This document shows, in pieces, positions 6,423 to 17,058 of a stretch of 64,000 bases of DNA. The translations under genes were made by a program, and so were the position numbers. Under the pieces are notes generated by a model that saw nothing but the letters and a program-made list of their open reading frames with translations, made no database searches and was not told the DNA's origin. The stretch covers positions 558,001 through 622,000 of the forward strand of contig NZ_QRGD01000002.1 in assembly GCF_003449015.1 (NCBI RefSeq), written 5' to 3'. The stretch comes from Aureibaculum luteum. Lineage in GTDB: Bacteria > Bacteroidota > Bacteroidia > Flavobacteriales > Flavobacteriaceae. How positions within the stretch are numbered: position 1 is the stretch's first letter; each line of letters starts with the position of its first letter.

Positions 6423-7702
6423 TGAACGATCATAATAACCATCGTAGAAAATTCATAAAAACGATTTCTACAGCTATGGCTGGCTTTGCAGTTGCTCCTG
6501 CTTTTACCTCCACGAACTTTGATAAAGTTAATAATAGTACAAGTGATCTATCTCTTGTAAATGATAATTCAGAAGCCTATTGGGAAAAAGTAAAACAAGA
6601 ATTTCTTTTTGTTGATGGGCTTAAATATTTTAATAATGCTTCCTTGGGTTCTTCACCCGTTTTAGTACAACGAGCCACAAGAAATTTTAGAGAAACTTTA
6701 GATAGTTTTCCCTCTAAATATATGTGGGGTGGATGGGACGAAGAAAAGGAAAAAACGCGTCAAACCGTGGCTGACTTTTTTTCGGTATCTAATGAGGAAA
6801 TTGCCCTTATACATAATACCACAGAAGGCATGAATCTTATTGCCCGAAGTATGGACTTAAAAAAAGGAGATGAAGTTATTCTTATTGATCATGAACATAC
6901 GAGTGGTACCATACCTTGGGAAGTATGGCAAGAAACAAAAGGTGTGAAATTAGTAAGGCCTAAAGTACCTATTCTTCCAAAAAATAAAGAAGAACTCATT
7001 GCTATTTATAAAAAAGCCATTACGTCAAAAACTAAAGTGATTTCAATGTGTCACATGGTTAATACGAATGGTATGATATTACCAGTAAAAGAAGTTTCTG
7101 AAATGGCTCATAAAAAGGGCATTCTAGTAGCTGTTGATGGGGCTCAAGCAGCGGGTATGTTTAGTATTGATTTACATGATTTGGGTTGTGATTTTTATAC
7201 TGTAAGTTCTCATAAATGGTTGTTCTCACCAAAAGGTGTTGGTATTTTTTATTCAAAAAAAGAAAGCCAACAGTATCTAAAACCTTTAATGGTCTGTAAA
7301 GGACATAAAGATGAGACTATAAGACGTTTAGAGAATTACAACACACGTAACTTACCTGAAGTTTTAGGTTTAGGTGCGAGCATCAATTTTTTAAATGCCA
7401 TTGGTTTAGAGAAAATCCATAACAGGACGTATGAGTTAAAAAAGTACTTTAGAAACAAAATAGCAGTGAATGCTAGTTTAAAATTAAAAACACCAGCGGC
7501 TGATAACCTGTCCGCTGCCATTCAAGTAGTAGAAGTTATTGGCAAGCCAGTTTCTCGTGTAAAAACGAGATTAATTGACCAATATGGTATCGATTGCCGC
7601 CCTATGAGCTCCTTTGGTTTAAATGCGGTACGTCTATCTTTTGCTATTTACATCACCAAAAAAGATATTGATTATTTGGTAAATGCTTTAGAAAGTATAT
7701 AG
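6422..7702 (+). CDS. Tat-exported class V aminotransferase (isopenicillin-N epimerase-like)
   Basis: A 426-residue PLP enzyme of the cysteine desulfurase/epimerase fold. The PLP lysine is K265 in SSHKW, preceded by the conserved VDGAQAAG segment; N-terminal NTTEGMN binds the cofactor phosphate. The N-terminus has a twin-arginine signal (HNNHRRKFIKTISTAMAG), so the folded holoenzyme is probably moved by the Tat system to the periplasm. The ATG overlaps the TAA of the BNR protein (TAATG), implying coupled translation and a shared substrate or process. The substrate is unknown; free-standing secreted relatives are usually annotated only as aminotransferase class V. Confidence 0.85.
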   Translation: MNDHNNHRRKFIKTISTAMAGFAVAPAFTSTNFDKVNNSTSDLSLVNDNSEAYWEKVKQEFLFVDGLKYFNNASLGSSPVLVQRATRNFRETLDSFPSKYMWGGWDEEKEKTRQTVADFFSVSNEEIALIHNTTEGMNLIARSMDLKKGDEVILIDHEHTSGTIPWEVWQETKGVKLVRPKVPILPKNKEELIAIYKKAITSKTKVISMCHMVNTNGMILPVKEVSEMAHKKGILVAVDGAQAAGMFSIDLHDLGCDFYTVSSHKWLFSPKGVGIFYSKKESQQYLKPLMVCKGHKDETIRRLENYNTRNLPEVLGLGASINFLNAIGLEKIHNRTYELKKYFRNKIAVNASLKLKTPAADNLSAAIQVVEVIGKPVSRVKTRLIDQYGIDCRPMSSFGLNAVRLSFAIYITKKDIDYLVNALESI

Positions 7703-7808: not shown

Positions 7809-9146
7809 TTATTTGGCAACATATTTTGGAATATTACACCCCATTCCTTGCCAAGGAAATATTCCAGCGGGCAATGCTTCATCAATGGTTATTAATGGGA
7901 GAAAAATTTCAGCATCCATAGCTACTGCACCACCTTGTACATTTAACCCTAGCATGCTTCTTAATTGATTGGCTCCAGAATTTGATACAGTTACCGCAGC
8001 ATCAACATCTGCTCTACTAATTTCTTTTCTATTTCCATAGATGTTTGCCCATCGTTCTGCCACTGAAATTTTAATCATCATACTCTGGTTGCCATCACTA
8101 TTCGGATCAATATGCATGGCTTCATCCAAAATATCGGCTACTGCCATTTTATCATTTATCTCTTTATAATCATATTTCCCATTTCCTGTAAATAGATTAT
8201 TTATCATAGTAAGTTTTGCCCCTTTATTATAAATACCACCCATATGTCCAAAACCTAGAGCATTATTTTCAACGGTTGCTATTAAATTTTGATCAAAAGC
8301 AAGAGCGTCTCCTCCGTAAGAGGCTACTGCATCATGTTTCCAAGAAAAAAGACTAGTGTTATGTTTAATTTTGAAAACCGGAAGTTTTGTAGCATCTGTT
8401 CCCATGTATCCCGTTCTAGCATGAATACCATATCCTGTATTATTGATCGTAAAATTGTTTTGAATAACTCCTTTACCACCTTCAAAAACTCTTACAGATA
8501 TAGCACCTTCAGTAGGTGCAGTATTCATTACAACACAATTTAAAACAGCAATATTTGTGTATTTACTTCCAACGATTACAATGCCTCCTGATTCTGGTGA
8601 TGGATTTTTTCCAGTTTTCGGATTCGCCATTCTACGTATTGCTAAATTTTTATCGGTATGATATCTATTTCTCGGGCCATTATCTATGATAATACCATCT
8701 ACAATAATTTCTGACCCCATTGATTTTTGACCATTACTCTCTCGTTGTTGGTCTGTTCTTATATAAATTCTAGGAGTAGTCAGTTTCATATACTCGTTGG
8801 TGCCCGTAAAAATGCTTTTATGTTCACCCCAAGGATCTCTTTTAGAGAATGTAGCATCATAACCTCCATAGATTTTCACAGGAACATTTATTTCGTCAGA
8901 GCCTCTGGCACCTTTACTCAAGTAAACGCCTTCAGCAACATGAATGCGATCGTTAGCTTTTAAATGATGTAAAATATTTCCTAAATCTTTTGCCGGACGT
9001 TCTTTTGTTCCTAATTGACCTGAGCCTGTATTTTTACTTACGTACCAGTCTCTTCCTTCATTAGAGAAAATTTGAGATGTATTTTGCGAAAAGGCAACGT
9101 TAAACACAGTGAATAGCGTAATAATTAATAAAATTTGATTTTTCAT
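7809..9146 (-). CDS. secreted right-handed beta-helix protein
   Basis: A 445-residue exported protein, taking the start at Met9 of the longest frame (position 9146), which begins a clean Sec signal (MKNQILLIITLFTVFNVAFS); an upstream ATG at 9170 would add eight residues before it. The mature region opens with a DUF1565-like start (WYVSKNTGSG, ERPAKDLGNIL, IHVAEGVYL) and continues with short beta-helix rungs rich in N-x-I/V turns. This is the parallel beta-helix fold of pectate-lyase-like surface proteins; no catalytic triad was identified. Its promoter carries the dyad operator and TANWTTGCA core shared with the two other operons of the locus, so it is probably controlled by the adjacent two-component system. 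Confidence 0.75.
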   Translation of the reverse strand: MKNQILLIITLFTVFNVAFSQNTSQIFSNEGRDWYVSKNTGSGQLGTKERPAKDLGNILHHLKANDRIHVAEGVYLSKGARGSDEINVPVKIYGGYDATFSKRDPWGEHKSIFTGTNEYMKLTTPRIYIRTDQQRESNGQKSMGSEIIVDGIIIDNGPRNRYHTDKNLAIRRMANPKTGKNPSPESGGIVIVGSKYTNIAVLNCVVMNTAPTEGAISVRVFEGGKGVIQNNFTINNTGYGIHARTGYMGTDATKLPVFKIKHNTSLFSWKHDAVASYGGDALAFDQNLIATVENNALGFGHMGGIYNKGAKLTMINNLFTGNGKYDYKEINDKMAVADILDEAMHIDPNSDGNQSMMIKISVAERWANIYGNRKEISRADVDAAVTVSNSGANQLRSMLGLNVQGGAVAMDAEIFLPLITIDEALPAGIFPWQGMGCNIPKYVAK

Positions 9147-9252: not shown

Positions 9253-9321
9253 TGCAATATACCCTACAATTATGTTGGTAGTATCCAAGAATTCAGTGAC
9301 AATAAAAAAGTCTATGAATTC
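9253..9321 (-). promoter_or_regulatory. shared operator-promoter, copy 1
   Basis: Reading the minus strand toward the beta-helix gene: dyad AATTCA-N19-TGAATT (9290-9320), A/T-rich spacer with GTCTAT next to the right arm on the plus strand, then core TATATTGCA (9253-9261). The G of plus-strand GAATTC (9316) is 62 bp from the G of plus-strand TGCA (9254). The same spacing occurs at 11194-11262 and 16112-16180. It probably binds the NarL-type regulator encoded next door. Confidence 0.65.
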
Positions 9322-9349
9322 ATATAGGTTTTAGATATTGGTTGAAAAG

Positions 9350-9994
9350 TTATTTGTTGAGTTCATATTCAAGAGCAACACGTACTAAACCGGCAGTATT
9401 TCTAGTTCCTGTTTTAATCAACATATTTCTACGATGGGTTTCAACAGTACCAAAACCTATAAAGAGTTTTTCAGCAATTTCGTTTGTAGTATGCTCATCA
9501 AGAATCAGTTTTAATACATCTTTTTCGCGATTTGATAGTTTTGGAAAAAGACTACAGGTACTCAATTTCTTTTTTGATTTTCCTAATTTGTTTATCACAA
9601 TTTGATTTGAAGCCTCATCTAAGTACATTTTGCCCTGAGAAACGGTCTTAATGGACTCGACAAGTTCCACCTTTCCTGCATTTTTTAAAACATAACCTTT
9701 TGCACCATTACCTAGCATCATTTTTATCAAACTACTTTCTTTGTGCATCGTAATTGCAATAATATTGACTGATGGAAGAATTTTTACAATTTCCTTACAG
9801 GCATCTATCCCGTTCATACCTGGCATATTTATATCTAAAAGTATTACATCAGGATGTATACTAGGAAGTTTTTCAATAGCATCTTCCGCATTAAGTGCAT
9901 GTCCAATAACTTCTATTTCAGATTCATTTTGTAACAATAAATTAAAACCCTCAATAACCATTTGGTGATCGTCAATAATAAAAACCTTAATCAT
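9350..9994 (-). CDS. NarL/LuxR-family response regulator
   Basis: A 214-residue regulator: receiver domain (residues 1-120) with acidic pair D8/D9, phospho-acceptor D54 in LLDINMPG and a TxHKE switch region, then a LuxR-type helix-turn-helix (about 150-210) with LSNREKDVLKLI and the recognition helix around GTVETHRRNMLIKTG. The domain order matches NarL-type regulators that pair with HPK7 kinases such as the TPR kinase 1.4 kb away. The three dyad operators in this locus are its most likely targets (inference). It is transcribed alone between two minus-strand units. Confidence 0.92.
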   Translation of the reverse strand: MIKVFIIDDHQMVIEGFNLLLQNESEIEVIGHALNAEDAIEKLPSIHPDVILLDINMPGMNGIDACKEIVKILPSVNIIAITMHKESSLIKMMLGNGAKGYVLKNAGKVELVESIKTVSQGKMYLDEASNQIVINKLGKSKKKLSTCSLFPKLSNREKDVLKLILDEHTTNEIAEKLFIGFGTVETHRRNMLIKTGTRNTAGLVRVALEYELNK

Positions 9995-10068
9995 AAAGCA
10001 GTTTAATTTAAAAATATAGTGGTTAACTCAATGTGCAATCATATTTTGTTTAAAAATACTATTTATTT

Positions 10069-10758
10069 TTAATAAAGATCTAATTGATATCCTGCAATAT
10101 AATCTATATCAACTTCTTTTGAAGTAGTTATAAAATAATTTCGGTAATAATCGTCTTCAAAAGTTAAAAACCCCTTGTATTTATATTGTTGCTCTTGTTT
10201 GGCAGTAAACACTCCAACTTCTGTAGCTTTATAACTAACTAAACGTCCATGTTGGTCTGTTAAGTTTTTCATAAATTGCTTTAAACCATCTGCTAAAGTT
10301 TCTGTTCTATATTTAGGTTTTACATTTTCGGATATAAGTTGATAATTTTCTTTTTTAAGGTTTTCTGAAAATTCAATAAATATTTCATTTTGATCCAAAA
10401 GATTAATTAAAGTTTTGGAATTATACTTAAAGATAGATGATTTGTTGGAGCTAGAATTTTCTAATTCTACATTAATTTGATTATAATCATCTTTTTCTTC
10501 TTGTGAAAAACTATCATACAATAGCATTGCTATTTTAGCAGTTGACAAATCTTGTCGCAAAGTGTCTAACATAAAGCTATTGGAAATTTTTATATCAAAA
10601 GATTTTATGGTCTCTTGACCTATAGTTGAATTGAAACTTTTTGAAAAAGATGCATTTCCACCAAAATGAGAGACCACTTTGTCCAGTCCTTTTTGTTGAT
10701 TTTCAGAAGCACAAGAAAAACAAATTACTATTCCTATTAGGTATACATATTTTTTCAT
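10069..10758 (-). CDS. hypothetical lipoprotein, locus of the NarL-type system
   Basis: A 229-residue lipoprotein, start chosen at 10758 (MKKYVYLIGIVICFSC, Cys16). The longest frame starts at 10833, but its first 25 residues are not signal-like and it would overlap the upstream gene. The mature part is mainly helical and charged, with one Asn/Ser-rich patch (ENSSSNKSS) and an aromatic C-terminus. No family recognised. It lies 58 nt behind the small membrane protein and is probably cotranscribed with it from the operator-bearing promoter. As part of the regulon it could be an immunity, sensing or accessory lipoprotein; this is inference from position only. Confidence 0.7.
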   Translation of the reverse strand: MKKYVYLIGIVICFSCASENQQKGLDKVVSHFGGNASFSKSFNSTIGQETIKSFDIKISNSFMLDTLRQDLSTAKIAMLLYDSFSQEEKDDYNQINVELENSSSNKSSIFKYNSKTLINLLDQNEIFIEFSENLKKENYQLISENVKPKYRTETLADGLKQFMKNLTDQHGRLVSYKATEVGVFTAKQEQQYKYKGFLTFEDDYYRNYFITTSKEVDIDYIAGYQLDLY

Positions 10759-10816
10759 GATTTTAAAGTATTTTTTTAGATTGTAAGCATTAGTAATGAA
10801 AGTATTTACGAATAGA

Positions 10817-11170
10817 TTAATTACCTTCTCCATAAGTTTCCCTTAAGAAATCTGCAACTTCTTTTTCTAATGCTCTAAATTCTTTCTTTTTTTTGTGCCA
10901 AATAATTCCGTAAAAAATAAAACCACCAATAAAAGTTAAAAATAACAGTAGTACAAAAACTATAAACATCCAAGACTTCATAATGTTTAAATTACTCATA
11001 ACTTTGAGTTCATTTTTTTTATGAAAAATGATGACCATAGATGAACCATTAATTACATTCAGGGCTTTTTTGTTTAAGAATGCATACTTTACCTTGTAAT
11101 TTGGGAATTTAGTACTTAGGCTTTCTTTAATTTCTGAAATGTTGGTTTGAGTTGTTATTGCCAGTTCCAT
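10817..11170 (-). CDS. small single-TM membrane protein
   Basis: A 117-residue protein with a soluble mixed alpha/beta N-terminal part (1-60), one long or double hydrophobic segment (about 65-90, MFIVFVLLLFLTF then GGFIFYGIIW) and a Lys/Glu-rich tail (HKKKKEFRALEKEVADFL). No family recognised. It is the first gene behind the second shared operator-promoter (core 24 nt upstream) and precedes the lipoprotein gene. It is a candidate membrane partner or self-protection protein for the exported-factor operon 3 kb away (inference). Confidence 0.65.
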   Translation of the reverse strand: MELAITTQTNISEIKESLSTKFPNYKVKYAFLNKKALNVINGSSMVIIFHKKNELKVMSNLNIMKSWMFIVFVLLLFLTFIGGFIFYGIIWHKKKKEFRALEKEVADFLRETYGEGN

Positions 11171-11193
11171 AATTTTGATTATTTAAATTCAAT

Positions 11194-11262
11194 TGCAAAT
11201 TAGATGGATTGTACACCATAACTATCATTTAAATCATATAGACAAAAAAAATCTATGAATTC
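11194..11262 (-). promoter_or_regulatory. shared operator-promoter, copy 2
   Basis: Dyad AAATCA-N19-TGAATT (11231-11261), one mismatch to the other copies, with an uninterrupted A tract in the centre and ATCTAT beside the right arm; core TAATTTGCA on the minus strand (11194-11202). The GAATTC to TGCA spacing is again 62 bp. It sits between the divergent membrane-protein gene (start 11170) and the kinase gene (start 11350), so it could affect both. Confidence 0.65.
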
Positions 11263-11349
11263 ATGGATTTTTTGGTTCTAATTTTAAAATAGAGGATATT
11301 TTATTTAAAAAGCAGTATTTTTCATATCGATTCAAAATAATCATTCATT

Positions 11350-13350
11350 ATGTCTTTTAAAAAAAGCCTCCCATCTATTGCTAAAGTTGTAGTAACTATT
11401 ATGTTGTATTTATTCTCAATATCCAACATTATTGCCCAAAACAAAATAGATAAAGCTTTTGATTCTATTATAAATAGTGAAATATTGACCAAGGAAAAGG
11501 TCATGAACTTACTCACTTTCGCAGGTAGAAATAGATATGTTCCTGCTACCAAAAAATTTATCATTAAAGCTTTAGAAATAGCATCGCTAGAAGGTGAGAA
11601 TAAAAAGTTATTGTTAGCAAATTCTTATTATGCTTTAGGAAATTATCACTTTTTTCATTCTCAAATTGATTCTAGCCTTGTAGCCCTTGATTTTGCAGAT
11701 GAAAACCTAAGTGAAAATGATCTGGTTTTAAAAGCTACAATCATGACAACCAGAGGTGGTATATACAATAAAGTGGGGGATGTTTCATTAGCAATTACCA
11801 CACAATTAAAAGCGAAGGAAATTTTAGAAAAAGTAGACACACTAACTTTAGATTTTAAAGAAAGAGTTAAAAGAAGAGGAAATATTTCTACCATAACCAA
11901 TAGTTTAGCGAATTTATACCTTAAGATAGATGATTTTGATAATGCATTGATTAATTATGAAAATGCTTTTAAACTTACAAAAGCTCTTAAAAACAAGCCC
12001 AACGCGGCAATTATTCTAAGCAATAAAGGAGAGCTTTTAAATAAAATGAAAAAATTCGAAGAGGCGTTAAAGGTTTCTAAACAAGCAAAACAATTAAAAT
12101 TGGAAGCGAAATTACCTGAAAGGTTTATAGCAATTTCTAACTTTCATATTGGCGTGGCATATAAAAACTTAGATAGTACGGCTCTTGCCTTAACCTATTT
12201 TAACCAAGTTCTAACTCAAAGCAGAAAAAAAAACTACAAACGAGGTGAAATGATGGCATTGTCTGAAAGGGGTTTAATAAATTTTGAATTAAATAAAATA
12301 AAAGAAGCTAAAGAAGATTGTACTATAGCCTTAGAAATTGCAGAAAAAACAAATGATAGTGATATTAAAATAAAATCGTGCGACTGTTTATATAAAGTAG
12401 AAAATAGTTTAGGTAATCATGAGGCTGCATTGCAAAAATATGAACGCTTTACCCAACTCAAAGACTCAGTTTATAACGAAAAGAATATTCGGAATATTAC
12501 CAAAATAGGGATGCAGTACGAGTTTGATAAAAAAGAGGCTCAACAAAAATTAATTATCGAAAAAAAGAATAGGCTAAGAAATAGATTAATATCAAGTTTC
12601 ATTGTTCTTACAATCATTGCCTTATTGATTGTGATTTTTTATAGAAAAAGGCATAAATATCAGCGTAAAATTACTGAACAGGAGCAAACTCTAAAGAATC
12701 AGGAAATAGTAAAACTACAACAAGAGAACCGTTTAACTGCCATAAATAGTATGATCGATGGTCAAGAAAAAGAAAGAGCAAGAATATCCAATGATTTACA
12801 TGATGGGTTAGGAGGCCTTCTGAGTTCTGTAAAGTCCCATTTTTTAGCAACACAAGAAGACAAAACTGAAAACCAGTCAACAGCAAAGAAAACTGAACTT
12901 TTAATTGATCAAGCATGTAATGAAGTTAGAAGAATATCTCATAATATGATGCCGCATGCATTAGTAATTTCAGGATTGAAAGATGGAATAAAAGATATTA
13001 CTGAACGATTAGAAATTGATAATTATGACGTAACCTTAGAAATAAACCAATTGCCAAAACTAGATGCTACACAAGAAATCATGGTATATAGATTAATTCA
13101 AGAAATTGTAGCCAATATAAAAAAACATGCTAACGCTAAATCTATATTTATTCAGCTTTATGCACATTTTACTACTGTGCATTTAATGGTTGAAGATGAT
13201 GGTAAAGGTTTTGACCTTTCAAAAATTAATGACAAAAAAGGACTCGGATTACAAAGTATTGAAAGTAGGGTAGCCTATTTAAATGGCATGATTGACTGGG
13301 ATACAGGTGAAGGTAAAGGCACCACTATAAATATTAACTTTCCCACTTAA
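11350..13350 (+). CDS. TPR-containing sensor histidine kinase (HPK7/NarX-type)
   Basis: A 666-residue membrane kinase: Sec signal (residues 1-29), about 370 residues of tetratricopeptide repeats in the periplasm (for example NAAIILSNKGELLNKMKKFEEAL), one TM helix (about 413-432), a coiled coil, a HisKA_3 dimerisation domain with phospho-acceptor H484 in ARISNDLHDGLGG, and a HATPase_c domain with N box EIVANIKKHA, G1 DDGKGFD and G2 KGLGLQSI. Such kinases signal to NarL-type regulators; the regulator at 9350-9994 is the obvious partner. Its stop lies 6 nt from the convergent stop of the SdpB-like gene. The signal is unknown; TPRs suggest peptide or protein sensing. Confidence 0.9.
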   Translation: MSFKKSLPSIAKVVVTIMLYLFSISNIIAQNKIDKAFDSIINSEILTKEKVMNLLTFAGRNRYVPATKKFIIKALEIASLEGENKKLLLANSYYALGNYHFFHSQIDSSLVALDFADENLSENDLVLKATIMTTRGGIYNKVGDVSLAITTQLKAKEILEKVDTLTLDFKERVKRRGNISTITNSLANLYLKIDDFDNALINYENAFKLTKALKNKPNAAIILSNKGELLNKMKKFEEALKVSKQAKQLKLEAKLPERFIAISNFHIGVAYKNLDSTALALTYFNQVLTQSRKKNYKRGEMMALSERGLINFELNKIKEAKEDCTIALEIAEKTNDSDIKIKSCDCLYKVENSLGNHEAALQKYERFTQLKDSVYNEKNIRNITKIGMQYEFDKKEAQQKLIIEKKNRLRNRLISSFIVLTIIALLIVIFYRKRHKYQRKITEQEQTLKNQEIVKLQQENRLTAINSMIDGQEKERARISNDLHDGLGGLLSSVKSHFLATQEDKTENQSTAKKTELLIDQACNEVRRISHNMMPHALVISGLKDGIKDITERLEIDNYDVTLEINQLPKLDATQEIMVYRLIQEIVANIKKHANAKSIFIQLYAHFTTVHLMVEDDGKGFDLSKINDKKGLGLQSIESRVAYLNGMIDWDTGEGKGTTININFPT

Positions 13351-13356
13351 AAAGTG

Positions 13357-14283
13357 TTAGTTTAAAGCTTTAGTAAGTAATTTAGGATATTTAATTGGGC
13401 TATGTTTAGCTGCCTCAAAATTATAATAAGCCGTTAGGTTTAGAATAATCATAATAGTGGAAAAGAAATACAAGTTTAAAACTAATGCAATTCCAAAATG
13501 CATAGCTATAATGGCAATTAACCAATACTTTTTAAGTGTCTCTATATTTATTAGAAAGTAACACATTTCTACTATAATAACAGACCAGCCCATACCGATC
13601 ATAATCCATTGGTAATTAACCAACCATTCTAAATTGATATTAAAATCTAAATTAGAATATGGCAAGGTCAAGGTTTTCCAGATCGACTCACCATTTCTCC
13701 AATTATGCCCTAATAATTTATCAAATCCAGAAAAAAAATAAGAAATAACCATAAATACTTGTAGATAAACACGGATTCGTTGAAAATTAAGCTTATTTCT
13801 TACTTTTTTCATGAGTGTCTTAAAAATTAATGAATCTATTGACATACTAACATTAGATGGTAGAAAACAAAGGAAAAACAAACAAATACTTGTAAAGTAA
13901 TCAACACCATAATTAAAAAACACATTGGTCTTAACTAATAATAAATGTAGCAAAAGAAGTAAAATGGCACTTGGTTGTGTTAAAAAACCAAGTAATAAAA
14001 ATAGCACTGCCATTCCGAACAAAAAGGTCAATATAGACCAGGCAAAAGCAGGGTCCAAATTTGTAATTTTTAAAAATCTATAGAGACTAATGTCATAATT
14101 TGGCACATATATGTCAGTTACCTTATTTGGAATTAATGCTTCTTCACCAAACAAGTATGGAAGATCTTGATAAATAGAAATAAAATGTATCCCAACAAAT
14201 AATGCAATTGCCATTCTAAAAAACACCAAATAATCATCTTTGTGTTCTAAATTAACTTTATTACTTAAGGTGTTTCCAAGCAT
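13357..14283 (-). CDS. SdpB/HTTM-like integral membrane protein
   Basis: A 308-residue polytopic protein with about seven to eight hydrophobic segments. It shows the landmarks of the HTTM (gamma-carboxylase-like) family: FFRMAIALFVGIHF near the N-terminus, GVDYFTSICLFFLCFLP in the middle, and YLQVFMVISYFFSGFDKL followed by W-x-x-G-x-S-x-W. In the Bacillus SDP system the HTTM protein SdpB, with SdpA, matures a secreted pro-peptide into a toxin. The start overlaps the upstream SdpA-like gene by 23 nt, so they are coupled. The family call is firm; participation in peptide maturation is inference from gene order. Confidence 0.8.
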   Translation of the reverse strand: MLGNTLSNKVNLEHKDDYLVFFRMAIALFVGIHFISIYQDLPYLFGEEALIPNKVTDIYVPNYDISLYRFLKITNLDPAFAWSILTFLFGMAVLFLLLGFLTQPSAILLLLLHLLLVKTNVFFNYGVDYFTSICLFFLCFLPSNVSMSIDSLIFKTLMKKVRNKLNFQRIRVYLQVFMVISYFFSGFDKLLGHNWRNGESIWKTLTLPYSNLDFNINLEWLVNYQWIMIGMGWSVIIVEMCYFLINIETLKKYWLIAIIAMHFGIALVLNLYFFSTIMIILNLTAYYNFEAAKHSPIKYPKLLTKALN

Positions 14284-14872
14284 TATCTTTGGTGTATTTT
14301 TGAGATTTTATTAAAGTATAGATTGGTATCATTTCTGGCTCATCTTCTAATTGACCCAATAATGGATGGTGATAGAGGTAAACTTTGGAGTGCACATATT
14401 TCCCTTTTTCTTCGTCAAGTAATACTCGAAGAGCCAACCCTTTTAAAAAAATATTACATTTTTTTAACCTCAAAGAATCTTTGTCGTCATTAAAATATTC
14501 TTCAAACATAAGATATGCACTTTTAATCCTTGTAATACTCTCTTTTCTTTTAAGGTGTGGAAAATTACTCGTTTTTATTAGGGTACTGTCTTCTGAATAT
14601 ACTTTAAACTCTGTAATATATTCGCTGGCTACGTTTGGTGCAAAAAAGCCAAAACCTGTTTCTAAACCAGTATAAGACAAGAATATTGAAATAGGTTCTT
14701 TTTCAATAAATAGCGTCGCATTAAATAAATTATTTTTGGATAAAATTGAATCAGCCTTATCAGCTTTGTAAAATTGAGTATACGATTTTATTGTACCTCT
14801 TGTATTAACGGATATGGTTAAGATAAAAATAACAAAAAAAACAAAAGTATAGAAAGTATTTATGTACCTCAT
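14261..14872 (-). CDS. SdpA-like membrane-anchored protein
   Basis: A 203-residue protein with one N-terminal membrane anchor (about residues 7-24) and an extracytoplasmic domain containing TGFGFFAPNV, a C-terminal amphipathic part and YLYHHPLLGQ. Its place directly before and overlapping an HTTM gene, its size and its single anchor match the SdpA partner of SdpB-like proteins. I cannot confirm homology without a profile search, so SdpA-like rests mostly on context. It is preceded by a hairpin that separates it from the small secreted protein gene. Confidence 0.5.
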   Translation of the reverse strand: MRYINTFYTFVFFVIFILTISVNTRGTIKSYTQFYKADKADSILSKNNLFNATLFIEKEPISIFLSYTGLETGFGFFAPNVASEYITEFKVYSEDSTLIKTSNFPHLKRKESITRIKSAYLMFEEYFNDDKDSLRLKKCNIFLKGLALRVLLDEEKGKYVHSKVYLYHHPLLGQLEDEPEMIPIYTLIKSQKYTKDNAWKHLK

Positions 14873-14884
14873 AATAAAACTTTA

Positions 14885-14924
14885 AAAGGCATTATTAAAT
14901 AATAATAATAATAATAATGCCTTT
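14885..14924 (-). terminator. hairpin with (AAT)7 loop, possible attenuator
   Basis: Perfect 13-bp arms (14885-14897 and 14912-14924, AAAGGCATTATTA and its complement) enclose a loop made of the AAT microsatellite. On the minus strand it begins 4 nt after the stop of the 142-residue secreted protein and is followed by a short TTTT, 13 nt before the SdpA-like start. It could partly terminate or protect the mRNA 3' end, giving more of the secreted product than of the membrane proteins. Confidence 0.55.
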
Positions 14925-14928
14925 AGGT

Positions 14929-15357
14929 TTAATTAAATTCATTCATCACTTTATCGATGTGGTTTTGAGCATTACTTACCCCCTCCATTTTAAACTCTTT
15001 ATCACGCCATATCGTTTTGGAAACTAAATCTTTATGTATATTATCATGTATAGCTGCAGTTTTAGTCGATTTATGTACTACCGCAGTCTCTTTCCAGCCC
15101 TTAACTCCTTTAAGCCTAGAAAGATCAATCACTTTACCATTTAGGTCAATTTCATTTACCTTATTTGCAAGTACGGTACTTTCTTTCCAGCCTTTAAACT
15201 CGCCTAACTGAGATATTAAATCTTTTAGGTTAGTTTCAAGGTTTTTGACCTGATAATTTCCATCTCTGAGTTTTACTACTGTACCTTTCTGTGTTTCACT
15301 AAAAGAAACTAGGGTTAATGATAAGACAGCTCCTATCATAAAAATAACATTTTTCAT
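14929..15357 (-). CDS. small secreted protein with duplicated GWKE motif
   Basis: A 142-residue exported protein, signal peptide about residues 1-21 (MKNVIFMIGAVLSLTLVSFS). The mature 120 residues contain an imperfect internal repeat: EFKGWKESTVLANKV and GVKGWKETAVVHKST, about 36 residues apart, each followed by a short I-D-L / D-L-V element. No family recognised. It lies between another secreted protein and the SdpA/SdpB-like pair, the place where an SdpC-type precursor would be expected, so it is a candidate substrate. That is inference; there is no visible processing site. Confidence 0.6.
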   Translation of the reverse strand: MKNVIFMIGAVLSLTLVSFSETQKGTVVKLRDGNYQVKNLETNLKDLISQLGEFKGWKESTVLANKVNEIDLNGKVIDLSRLKGVKGWKETAVVHKSTKTAAIHDNIHKDLVSKTIWRDKEFKMEGVSNAQNHIDKVMNEFN

Positions 15358-15540
15358 ATTAATCTATTTAATATTTAACGCATCAGATTTTTTATAAGGG
15401 GTCTCTGATACTTGCAATATGCCATGCAATTCCCTAATGTAATTTCATAAATTATCTAATTTTAATAGTATAAAAGTGGCAAGTCCTAATAATATGAATT
15501 ACCTGGATTTACGAGTTCGAGGAAGTCCGAACAATAAAAC

Positions 15541-16086
15541 TTATTTAGCGTTTATACGGTACTTAAACTTATTAGCCACAGATTTATTAAGCATGGCTAC
15601 AGTGATTACTTTACCTTTAACTCCTGTTAATGTAAACACTTTGTTTTTTCCATTTCTACTATTTGGAAATGTGTAGGTTTTTATAGTTCTAGTAACCCCG
15701 TCTTTTCCATGTGAACAGATTACGACACCAGTTTCAGCCCTACCATCATACTTATTTATGGTTATTTTCATCGTATTATTAAATGAAGGAGGTGTTACAA
15801 ACGTTCTTTTCGTTTGGCCAGTTATACTCCCCGTTTCATTACCACCATCAACTTCCAAGTAACGAGGGCCAACTGTAGATGAGCGATTACCAGCAATATA
15901 GTTCCATGCTCTTTTGACTTTATCAACTTTACTTTTAAACGGTATTAAAGAAATGTTTGGCTTCCAAGTGCCAAATTTTTCCCATGTTCTTTTCGCCATC
16001 TTCGTTCCTTGAGTACAACTTTGAGCTTCTGCATTAAATGCTAAAACAAGACTAAACACTAAACTTAAAATAATAGATTTTTTCAT
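15541..16086 (-). CDS. basic secreted protein, first gene of SdpAB-like operon
   Basis: A 181-residue exported protein with a Sec signal (cleavage probably after NAEA, about residue 21). The mature protein is strongly basic (many Lys/Arg) and beta-rich, with two Cys (near the mature N-terminus and in VVICSHGKDG) that could form a disulfide. No family recognised. It is the first gene behind the third shared operator-promoter and precedes, after 183 nt, the GWKE-repeat protein. It may be an exported effector or partner of the system; no activity can be claimed. Confidence 0.6.
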   Translation of the reverse strand: MKKSIILSLVFSLVLAFNAEAQSCTQGTKMAKRTWEKFGTWKPNISLIPFKSKVDKVKRAWNYIAGNRSSTVGPRYLEVDGGNETGSITGQTKRTFVTPPSFNNTMKITINKYDGRAETGVVICSHGKDGVTRTIKTYTFPNSRNGKNKVFTLTGVKGKVITVAMLNKSVANKFKYRINAK

Positions 16087-16111
16087 TTTTAATATATTTT
16101 TAAATTAGAAC

Positions 16112-16180
16112 TGCAAAGTATAAACAGTCTAACTTTAAAACATCTATCAATTCAAATAGTCAAAAAAAATCTATGAATTC
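16112..16180 (-). promoter_or_regulatory. shared operator-promoter, copy 3
   Basis: Dyad AATTCA-N19-TGAATT (16149-16179) with an A tract in the centre and ATCTAT beside the right arm; minus-strand core TACTTTGCA (16112-16120). GAATTC to TGCA spacing is 62 bp, identical to the other two copies, and dyad centre to start codon is 78 nt, against 76 nt at copy 2. Confidence 0.65.
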
Positions 16181-16239
16181 TGTTGGTATTAATTTACGAT
16201 ATCAATATAGAATACAAACCTTTTAATTAAAACATAGTT

Positions 16240-17058
16240 TTAACTCCACCAAACCACAAAAAACTTTTCAAAAGTACCATTTGGTCTTTTCAACCAACAA
16301 AGAGGTGCCTTTTTCTCATGGACAAGTGTATTTATTTGTCTGGAAAAAGAATCGAAATTTAGCCAAGTTACCTGTGTTTGAATCGCCATAAGCCAATTCA
16401 ATTTTGCGGGTATATAAAATTTACAGTCCGTAAACTTATCTATTTCAGGGAGGTGAATGTAAAACCCGGTTAAACATTGCTTATTCAAAAGTTTAAATTT
16501 TGGAATTTCTGAAGTATAGGGAACAAACAATTGGGCTTTAAAGAAAACACATTGTTTTATTTCTTCTGCATTGAGTTTTAAACCTTGCAAAATAGGTTTT
16601 GTGTGCTCAGAATAGAGTAGTGGTAGTTGTTTTTCCTTTAACTTAGTTAGTTTTTTAACCAAGGTGTCATTTCTGTTAGGACCTATCCAGTGTTCAATTT
16701 CAGTTGTACCTACTCGTTCATCAAATAAATAGAATTTGTAAATTATTTCCAAATGGATGGGTGTATTATTTTTCTTTAAGATACAATCCAATTCGCCAAC
16801 GGTTCTTTTCCCATCTTGAATTTGCATATTTTCTAATAGAATTTCAATCGCATCATCTTGCCTCAATTCATAGCTCACAAAACGTTCTACACGTTTACCT
16901 AATCTTAAATTTGACGGAAGTACTTCGTTAAAAATGGTGTCATCCTTTTTAGAAAATACAAATTGTTCCAATCCCAAAACAGTATCCTTCAACCACAGTA
17001 GTGGCGTATGTATACTACCTTGATATTGATTATGGACGTCTTTTGTTTTAATATTCAT
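16240..17058 (-). CDS. DUF1853 family protein
   Basis: A 272-residue cytoplasmic protein of the DUF1853 family: an N-terminal LRLGKRVERFVSYEL segment, then VGELDCILKKNNTPIHLEIIYKFYL (quoted in two parts: VGELDCIL and HLEIIYKFYL), and a C-terminal Trp-rich region (KLNWLMAIQTQVTWL, WLKRP). The ELD...HxE...K arrangement resembles a PD-(D/E)XK nuclease core, so a DNA-related role is possible but unproven. It is a single gene divergent from the ATP-grasp operon. Confidence 0.75.
   Translation of the reverse strand: MNIKTKDVHNQYQGSIHTPLLWLKDTVLGLEQFVFSKKDDTIFNEVLPSNLRLGKRVERFVSYELRQDDAIEILLENMQIQDGKRTVGELDCILKKNNTPIHLEIIYKFYLFDERVGTTEIEHWIGPNRNDTLVKKLTKLKEKQLPLLYSEHTKPILQGLKLNAEEIKQCVFFKAQLFVPYTSEIPKFKLLNKQCLTGFYIHLPEIDKFTDCKFYIPAKLNWLMAIQTQVTWLNFDSFSRQINTLVHEKKAPLCWLKRPNGTFEKFFVVWWS

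Follow-up and report, generated by a model that had tools for sequence, protein, structure and literature searches.

A tandem-repeat promoter element and a two-component pair as a probable local regulon in Aureibaculum luteum

Here we describe a composite promoter element of Aureibaculum luteum that occurs three times within 7 kb of a 64-kb stretch of its 5.1-Mb genome (positions 558001-622000 of its contig, referred to as the window; same family as Croceitalea, G176). The element consists of two tandem direct repeats followed by a -7 box. It stands before a beta-helix-like gene, before a gene for a small membrane protein (TM117) that is followed by a lipoprotein-like gene and a response regulator gene, and before an operon that begins with p181, a predicted secreted protein. 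Judging from sequence comparison, we consider these three elements to be operators belonging to a single small regulon, controlled by the two-component pair whose genes lie within it, with a probability of about 0.86. This reading builds on the presence of only three strong sites in the genome, all less than 7 kb from the regulator gene, on the retention of the element before orthologous genes, on its co-occurrence with the regulator over the genomes of the family, and on kinase sequence being the first open reading frame (ORF) at 9 of 86 sites.

Bacteroidota promoters differ from the textbook form and, to our knowledge, only a small number of NarL/LuxR-type regulators in this phylum have a known operator. 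The element provides an operator defined to the base together with the name of its likely regulator. No earlier report of the element or the regulon was found in the parts of the literature covered by our search, and we judge the regulon to be new and well supported. It also offers a handle on a conserved family of predicted secreted proteins, p181 and its paralogs, that has no Pfam match, and it suggests that this family is produced on a signal sensed by a TPR kinase.

Results

Three copies of one element in the window

A sequence-only reading of the window had proposed that three minus-strand promoters carry the dyad AATTCA-N19-TGAATT at one and the same distance from a TGCA core. All three sites are present with that spacing. 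The pattern occurs exactly at 9290-9320 and 16149-16179 (shuffle mean 0.03 for the window) and with one mismatch at 11231-11261; at up to one mismatch, three matches in the window are not rare by themselves (shuffle mean 1.15; matched by 11 of 100 shuffles). TCTATGAATT is confined to the three promoter sites in the window, as had been claimed (shuffle mean 0.47), and the composite that includes the TGCA core is mismatch-free at all three. Allowing up to three mismatches, the composite gives five window matches against a mean of 0.55.

The element is a tandem direct repeat

Alignment of 45 sites, the three of the window included, gives the order of the element: repeat A (CTAnnnGAATTCATAGATTTTT), repeat B (CTAnnnGAwTTCTTTGATA) 27 bp further on (26 bp in some sites), 20 bp of spacer and a -7 box TAnnTTRS, of which TAnnTT is the conserved part. 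A 46th site without a box in register (L106:15891) was dropped before alignment. Repeat B has the same orientation as repeat A, with a period of 27 bp. Scored under the profile of A, the columns of B give -1.3 bits in the direct register and -7.9 bits in the best inverted one; for the 35 sites on which the first matrix had not been trained, the values are -0.6 and -6.9 bits. The exact N19 dyad is found in 2 of the 45 aligned sites and in 28 when two mismatches are allowed. We therefore rejected the dyad operator, since its inverted symmetry is not conserved over the 45 sites and the direct register scores higher. AATTCA and TGAATT are parts of the palindromic GAATTC cores of two direct repeats, and because GAATTC is its own reverse complement, their direct repetition resembles a dyad. 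Each repeat unit is itself loosely palindromic.

The repeats and the box have a mean majority base of 0.73-1.0 and the spacers of 0.40-0.49, a contrast to be read with the choice of sites by a matrix of the whole element in mind. Searched alone, repeat B has a box at 20 bp in 47 of 77 matches, at any other offset in three at most, and no box in 25, counts that include training sites and duplicates. For B matches outside the training set (n = 77) the box lies at 20 bp in 16, at other offsets in two at most, and most have no box. Repeat-A matches outside the training set (n = 68) are followed by B at 27 bp in 20 cases, at 26 bp in 10 and at 25 bp in one, which makes 31 with a clear repeat B, 30 of them at 27 or 26 bp.

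Specificity within the genome and the family

The whole-genome search suggested by the sequence-only reading returned no strong match beyond the three window sites. The 17-base left part of the element, AATTCATAGAYTTTTTT, is exact only there in the 5.1-Mb genome, and under a 92-position sequence model, built from 45 sites including the three themselves, they score 45.7-50.3 bits, with the next match in the genome at 18.0. Across 397 genomes of the family the exact 17-base pattern was matched in 14; its 13 places outside the own genome compare with 6 for a reversed control. As this control marks part of these matches as chance, we moved to a profile. With six duplicate loci (L103, L108, L110, L114, L115, L116) dropped, a 70-position matrix trained on 10 sites found 46 distinct sites that score above 22.5 bits; 36 of these lie outside the training set.

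That the element is a chance similarity or a dispersed repeat, as A/T-rich intergenic DNA and the excess of the bare 17-base pattern (one outside place being in the same-genus genome G314) might suggest, is hardly credible: the reversed matrix scores at most 10.9 bits in 754,200 bases, the three strong copies of the own genome have diverged spacers, and both the genome-wide specificity and the co-occurrence described below speak against it. Neither regulator ortholog nor element was detected in the same-genus genomes G119 and G314, and beside its single bare 17-base match G314 has no model match above 15.8 bits.

The element tracks the regulator

A profile of nine regulator orthologs separates 24 of the 397 family genomes, which score at least 355.9 bits and span 17 genera, from all others, which reach at most 243.5 bits. 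The element is found at E < 1e-6 in 23 of these 24 genomes versus 0 of the 373 others. Excluding the genomes that contributed sites to the model, the figures are 8 of 9 versus 0 of 373. In 14 further genomes among the 373 the best element match has an E of 6.2e-5 to 9.5e-4; these matches are taken, as a group, to be noise because of the gap to 6.6e-10. The exception among the regulator genomes, G012, has a 17.4-bit site that ranks third in its genome and lies 113 nt before the kinase gene. A class-wide sample of 193 genomes showed regulator or element in the own genome only (thresholds E 1e-72 and 1e-4). In the genomes searched, the operator is thus retained ahead of orthologous genes and found only alongside the regulator, with G012 as the weak case.

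Association with the target genes is looser. In a scan of 84,980 species, each represented by one genome, a p181 profile matched 23 loci, including those of Flagellimonas, Muricauda, Allomuricauda, Ulvibacter, Marinirhabdus, Altibacter, Aureitalea and Algoriphagus. Of seven genomes hand-picked from these loci, all five with the regulator have the element, Algoriphagus faecimaris included; a Bacteroidia metagenome-assembled genome (MAG) and a Lutibacter MAG, both possibly incomplete, have p181 and show neither a regulator match at 1e-55 nor the element. Conversely, regulator and element occur together in G041, G233, G243 and G302, where the fetched stretches give no p181 match at 1e-8. Since p181 without the regulator lacks the element and the regulator without p181 has it, the element tracks the regulator and not the target.

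Co-occurrence cannot name the binding protein, and some genomes have elements that are remote from the cluster by contig or by distance (L190-L207); both points would suit another regulator, encoded elsewhere, with the local pair as just one member of its regulon. We regard this as distinctly unlikely, as some other transcription factor would have to share this distribution across 17 genera, and among the ten cluster proteins of the window that were scanned the local regulator is the only one with a DNA-binding domain.

Orthologous loci

The whole cluster is retained in Croceitalea dokdonensis (L087, which shares its contig with L103), at 81% for the beta-helix protein, which has its own element there, 74% for the regulator, 40% for the lipoprotein, 61% for TM117, 54% for the kinase, 62% and 60% for the SdpB-like and SdpA-like proteins, 52% for p142 and 79% for p181. 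Seven more genomes of the family (L088, L089, L091-L095) have p181, kinase, regulator and lipoprotein together. The element is visible by eye upstream of many orthologous genes, and loci that keep kinase and regulator retain both the element and its spacing, G012 again excepted as weak. In L091, L092 and L094 it is absent before p181 and present before an upstream paralog or a neighbouring gene. By eye, genes resembling extracytoplasmic function (ECF) sigma and/or anti-sigma factors, together with a large TonB/receptor-like gene, were seen near the cluster in L089, L091, L093, L094 and L095; no such genes were seen around the window cluster.

Genes behind the element

We examined the genes downstream of 92 sites, some of them weak (106 rows minus ten duplicates and four weak ones, two in L112 and one each in L104 and L105), counting closely related genomes such as L091 and L121 apart. 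An ORF of at least 70 codons follows in 86 of them, mostly at a distance of about 90-150 nt counted from where the site begins. Grouped by similarity, these first ORFs comprise 38 members of p181 and its paralogs, 9 TM117, 9 kinase sequences and a remainder of small groups. One group of seven consists mostly of large proteins with VGINNT-like starts; two of its members were scanned, one with YadA-head and C1q domains above cut-off, the other with sub-cut-off C1q/BclA_C. Predicted secreted proteins make up most of the downstream products, which also include the kinase and, judged by its place in the operon, the regulator. One of 16 sites checked lies inside a long open frame, a possible N-terminal extension of the kinase in L087.

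Several loci stand out. In L186 (G302, about 6700-7007), a strong element precedes a short broken frame and a kinase fragment, as though the target had disappeared along with the first part of the kinase. Six elements far from the cluster (L195, L199, L202, L205, L206, L207) match the model on both strands, five of the six beside a VGINNT-group protein, and may be bidirectional operators. In L203 and L204, weak elements (21.2 bits) precede proteins of 1314 and 1339 amino acids, whose C-terminal ends resemble what we take to be type IX secretion signals.

Core promoter and position of the repeats

The Flavobacterium psychrophilum transcriptome revealed a sigma-A box TAnnTTTG and a variant, SM5, TAnnTTGY, at -12 to -5 (PMC9723704). 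The window boxes TATATTGC, TAATTTGC and TACTTTGC match SM5, all three ending in TTGC. Start sites placed by the published box position would lie at about 9249, 11190 and 16108, which would center repeat B near -42.5 and repeat A near -69.5. An RNA or terminator element was set aside, as the element lies upstream of the start so placed. The lux box, a 20-base imperfect dyad, is located 42.5 nucleotides upstream of its start site (PMC7585371). With start sites taken from the published box position, the inner repeat would accordingly hold a class II activator position at a fixed distance of 20 bp from the box.

Two other readings bear on this geometry. The repeats could be repressor operators through which the regulator blocks the promoters in one signalling state, given that repeat B stops 20 bp short of the -7 box and a protein bound to it would overlie the -33 region; we hold this to be unlikely, for the fixed spacing and a center near -42.5, as in lux boxes (PMC7585371), better suit activation. 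Alternatively, the element could be mainly a promoter of an alternative or ECF sigma factor that includes the upstream part in its recognition. The fit of the window boxes to SM5 (PMC9723704), the ECF sigma and anti-sigma-like genes near several related clusters and the end of the repeat B consensus, TTTGATA, which places a TTG near -37, would agree with such a promoter. It is nevertheless very improbable: no sigma gene was seen by eye among the ORFs around the window cluster or in the Croceitalea stretch, the conserved parts extend to about -78, beyond the expected contact of a sigma factor, and 373 family genomes that presumably have SM5-type promoters lack the strong element.

The two-component pair

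The sequence-only reading had placed a NarL-type regulator and an HPK7 kinase inside the same 7 kb, and the domain assignments bear this out. The regulator has the receiver with a phospho-acceptor Asp and the GerE/LuxR helix-turn-helix (HTH) domain, above cut-off, that define the NarL/FixJ (LuxR-type) family; D8, D9, D54, K104 and GTVETHRRNMLIKTG are invariant in nine orthologs. Its best NCBIfam model, MctR, scores 169.7 bits, below the cut-off of 300. The kinase, of the HisKA_3 (HPK7-type) class, matches PF07730 and PF02518 above cut-off and combines H484 in a DLHDG-type H box with HATPase_c and a predicted membrane anchor, a hydrophobic segment by hydropathy. TM117, lipoprotein and regulator lie on one strand, and the gap ahead of the regulator is 74 bases; the regulator is therefore probably under promoter 2 as well, which would create positive feedback.

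Repeat A of promoter 2 is nearly palindromic and common to a weak element on the opposite strand of the same intergenic region, facing the kinase gene and pointing to possible autoregulation. Croceitalea L087 (9785-9869, plus strand, 19.8 bits) and L106 (25.1 bits) have kinase-facing copies too; in L104 and L105 the copy consists of repeat A alone (17 bits each).

Discussion

The local two-component regulon with activator sites upstream of RNA polymerase, as first read from the window, has support from both tests that could be computed, in the genome and in orthologous loci. What the data show directly is sequence, spacing, conservation and co-occurrence with this regulator; from these we infer the binding by this regulator, activation rather than repression, dependence on phosphorylation, the start sites, the topology of the sensor and the signal. 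In such a regulon, the kinase, with its TPR sensor region, single internal membrane span and HisKA_3 core, would phosphorylate the NarL/LuxR-type regulator. The regulator would bind two tandem, loosely palindromic sites of 18-19 bp (CTAnnnGAATTCwTwGAT), 27 bp apart, and recruit RNA polymerase from the class II position of the inner copy to promoters with a non-standard -7 box (TAnnTTGC in the window). The output would be secreted proteins, the lipoprotein, the regulator itself and perhaps the kinase, closing a positive feedback loop.

Several observations weigh against this regulon. The inner repeat of copy 2 is degenerate, and 37 of the 68 repeat-A matches outside training have no clear repeat B. 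At a period of 27 bp, or about 2.6 helical turns, two dimers would come to lie on different faces of the DNA. The box reads TAnnTTAG rather than TAnnTTGC in many other sites, 6 of the 92 sites have no ORF of at least 70 codons in reach, one of the nine kinase cases (L186) is a kinase fragment only, and ECF sigma or anti-sigma-like genes adjoin several other loci. Contingency p-values of the co-occurrence are descriptive only, because the genomes are related, and the kinase may co-occur with the element as tightly as does the regulator, the member of the pair scanned over the 397 genomes.

The nearest studied pair that we found is FimS/FimR of Porphyromonas gingivalis, in which FimR binds the mfa1 promoter region by electrophoretic mobility shift assay (PMC1974823). 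It is likewise a Bacteroidota two-component pair acting on surface-protein genes (PMC1974823), and kinase residues 177-343, in the TPR region, match the NCBIfam FimS model, although at 26.2 bits against a cut-off of 600; moreover, the FimS/FimR targets are fimbriae. That article's text contains neither 'footprint' nor 'binding site' (PMC1974823) and thus offers no FimR operator for comparison. LuxR and the lux box share with the window the LuxR-type HTH and a site near -42.5, here counted from an inferred start (PMC7585371); the window differs in its two tandem sites, its receiver-domain regulator and its Bacteroidota -7 box. The SM5 promoters of F. psychrophilum have the TAnnTTGY box that the three window boxes fit; in the consulted part of that source they come with no upstream operator, and the genes listed for them are those of gliding, lipopolysaccharide and peptidases (PMC9723704). 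Many of the elements related to those of the window read TAnnTTAG. Finally, NarL/FixJ regulators paired with HisKA_3 (HPK7-type) kinases resemble the pair in the domain make-up of both proteins, and the window stands apart by its own direct-repeat operator with a 27-bp period and a best NCBIfam model below cut-off.

More tentatively, and with the odds against it, the cluster might be a self-contained Bacteroidota module, gained and lost as a unit, in which a TPR-sensor pair acts on its own two-repeat operator and on a -7 box that is inactive unless the regulator is bound. Such a module could recruit further genes for secreted or surface proteins (of YadA-head/C1q type, very large secreted ones, or paralogs of p181) whenever the 70-bp element arises before them.

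Features of the window

Table 1. Promoter elements and genes of the cluster, in window coordinates
Feature	Position	Strand	Remark
Promoter 1 (beta-helix gene), outer repeat A CTATATGAATTCATAGACT	9309..9327	-	model match 50.3 bits
Promoter 1, inner repeat B GTCACTGAATTCTTGGATA	9282..9300	-	inferred centre -42.5
Promoter 1, -7 box TATATTGC, TAnnTTGY type	9254..9261	-	box position after PMC9723704
Promoter 2 (TM117, lipoprotein, probably regulator), outer repeat A ATCCATGAATTCATAGATT	11250..11268	-	46.6 bits
Promoter 2, inner repeat B CTATATGATTTAAATGATA, degenerate	11223..11241	-	
Promoter 2, -7 box TAATTTGC	11195..11202	-	
Promoter 3 (p181 operon), outer repeat A CCAACAGAATTCATAGATT	16168..16186	-	45.7 bits
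Promoter 3, inner repeat B CTATTTGAATTGATAGATG	16141..16159	-	
Promoter 3, -7 box TACTTTGC	16113..16120	-	
Weak opposite-strand copy, toward kinase gene	11246..11324	+	18.0 bits, E 0.009 in genome
Beta-helix-like protein, N-terminal hydrophobic start, behind promoter 1	7809..9143	-	PF13229 below cut-off
Response regulator, receiver and LuxR/GerE HTH	9350..9994	-	PF00072 1e-26, PF00196 5.9e-14
Lipoprotein-like gene	10069..10761	-	often adjoins regulator in related loci
TM117, small membrane protein, first gene behind promoter 2	10817..11170	-	hydrophobic segment
Sensor kinase	11350..13350	+	N-terminal hydrophobic segment, TPR region, transmembrane segment about 409-433, HisKA_3 and HATPase_c
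Membrane protein, HTTM-type via homologs (SdpB-like)	13357..14283	-	no direct match
Protein labelled SdpA-like by the sequence-only reading	14261..14872	-	label without profile support
p142, small predicted secreted protein	14929..15357	-	same strand, downstream of p181
p181, predicted secreted, predicted C-terminal beta-sandwich, first gene behind promoter 3	15541..16086	-	

p181 has no match in Pfam or NCBIfam; it is 51-79% conserved across genera in loci L103-L125, with paralogs adjoining in several genomes. Its structure model (mean predicted local distance difference test score 73.6) comprises an N-terminal helix, two further helices and an eight-strand C-terminal part, the C-terminal sandwich being good and the N-terminal part poor. 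The 50 structural matches listed are generic, with query TM-scores of 0.25-0.43 and identities of 6-21%; several carry toxin names, which we took to reflect a shared common fold, drawing no function from them.

The operon behind promoter 3 had been labelled SdpAB-like. The SdpA-like and SdpB-like window proteins gave no NCBIfam match and no relevant Pfam match at E up to 10. For the SdpB-like protein the label finds some backing in two homologs (L099, L101) that match PF05090 HTTM, whereas its SdpA-like partner is left without a relevant profile match. A DUF1853 gene (16240-17058; PF08907, 1.3e-44) adjoins promoter 3 on its upstream side and has the same orientation.

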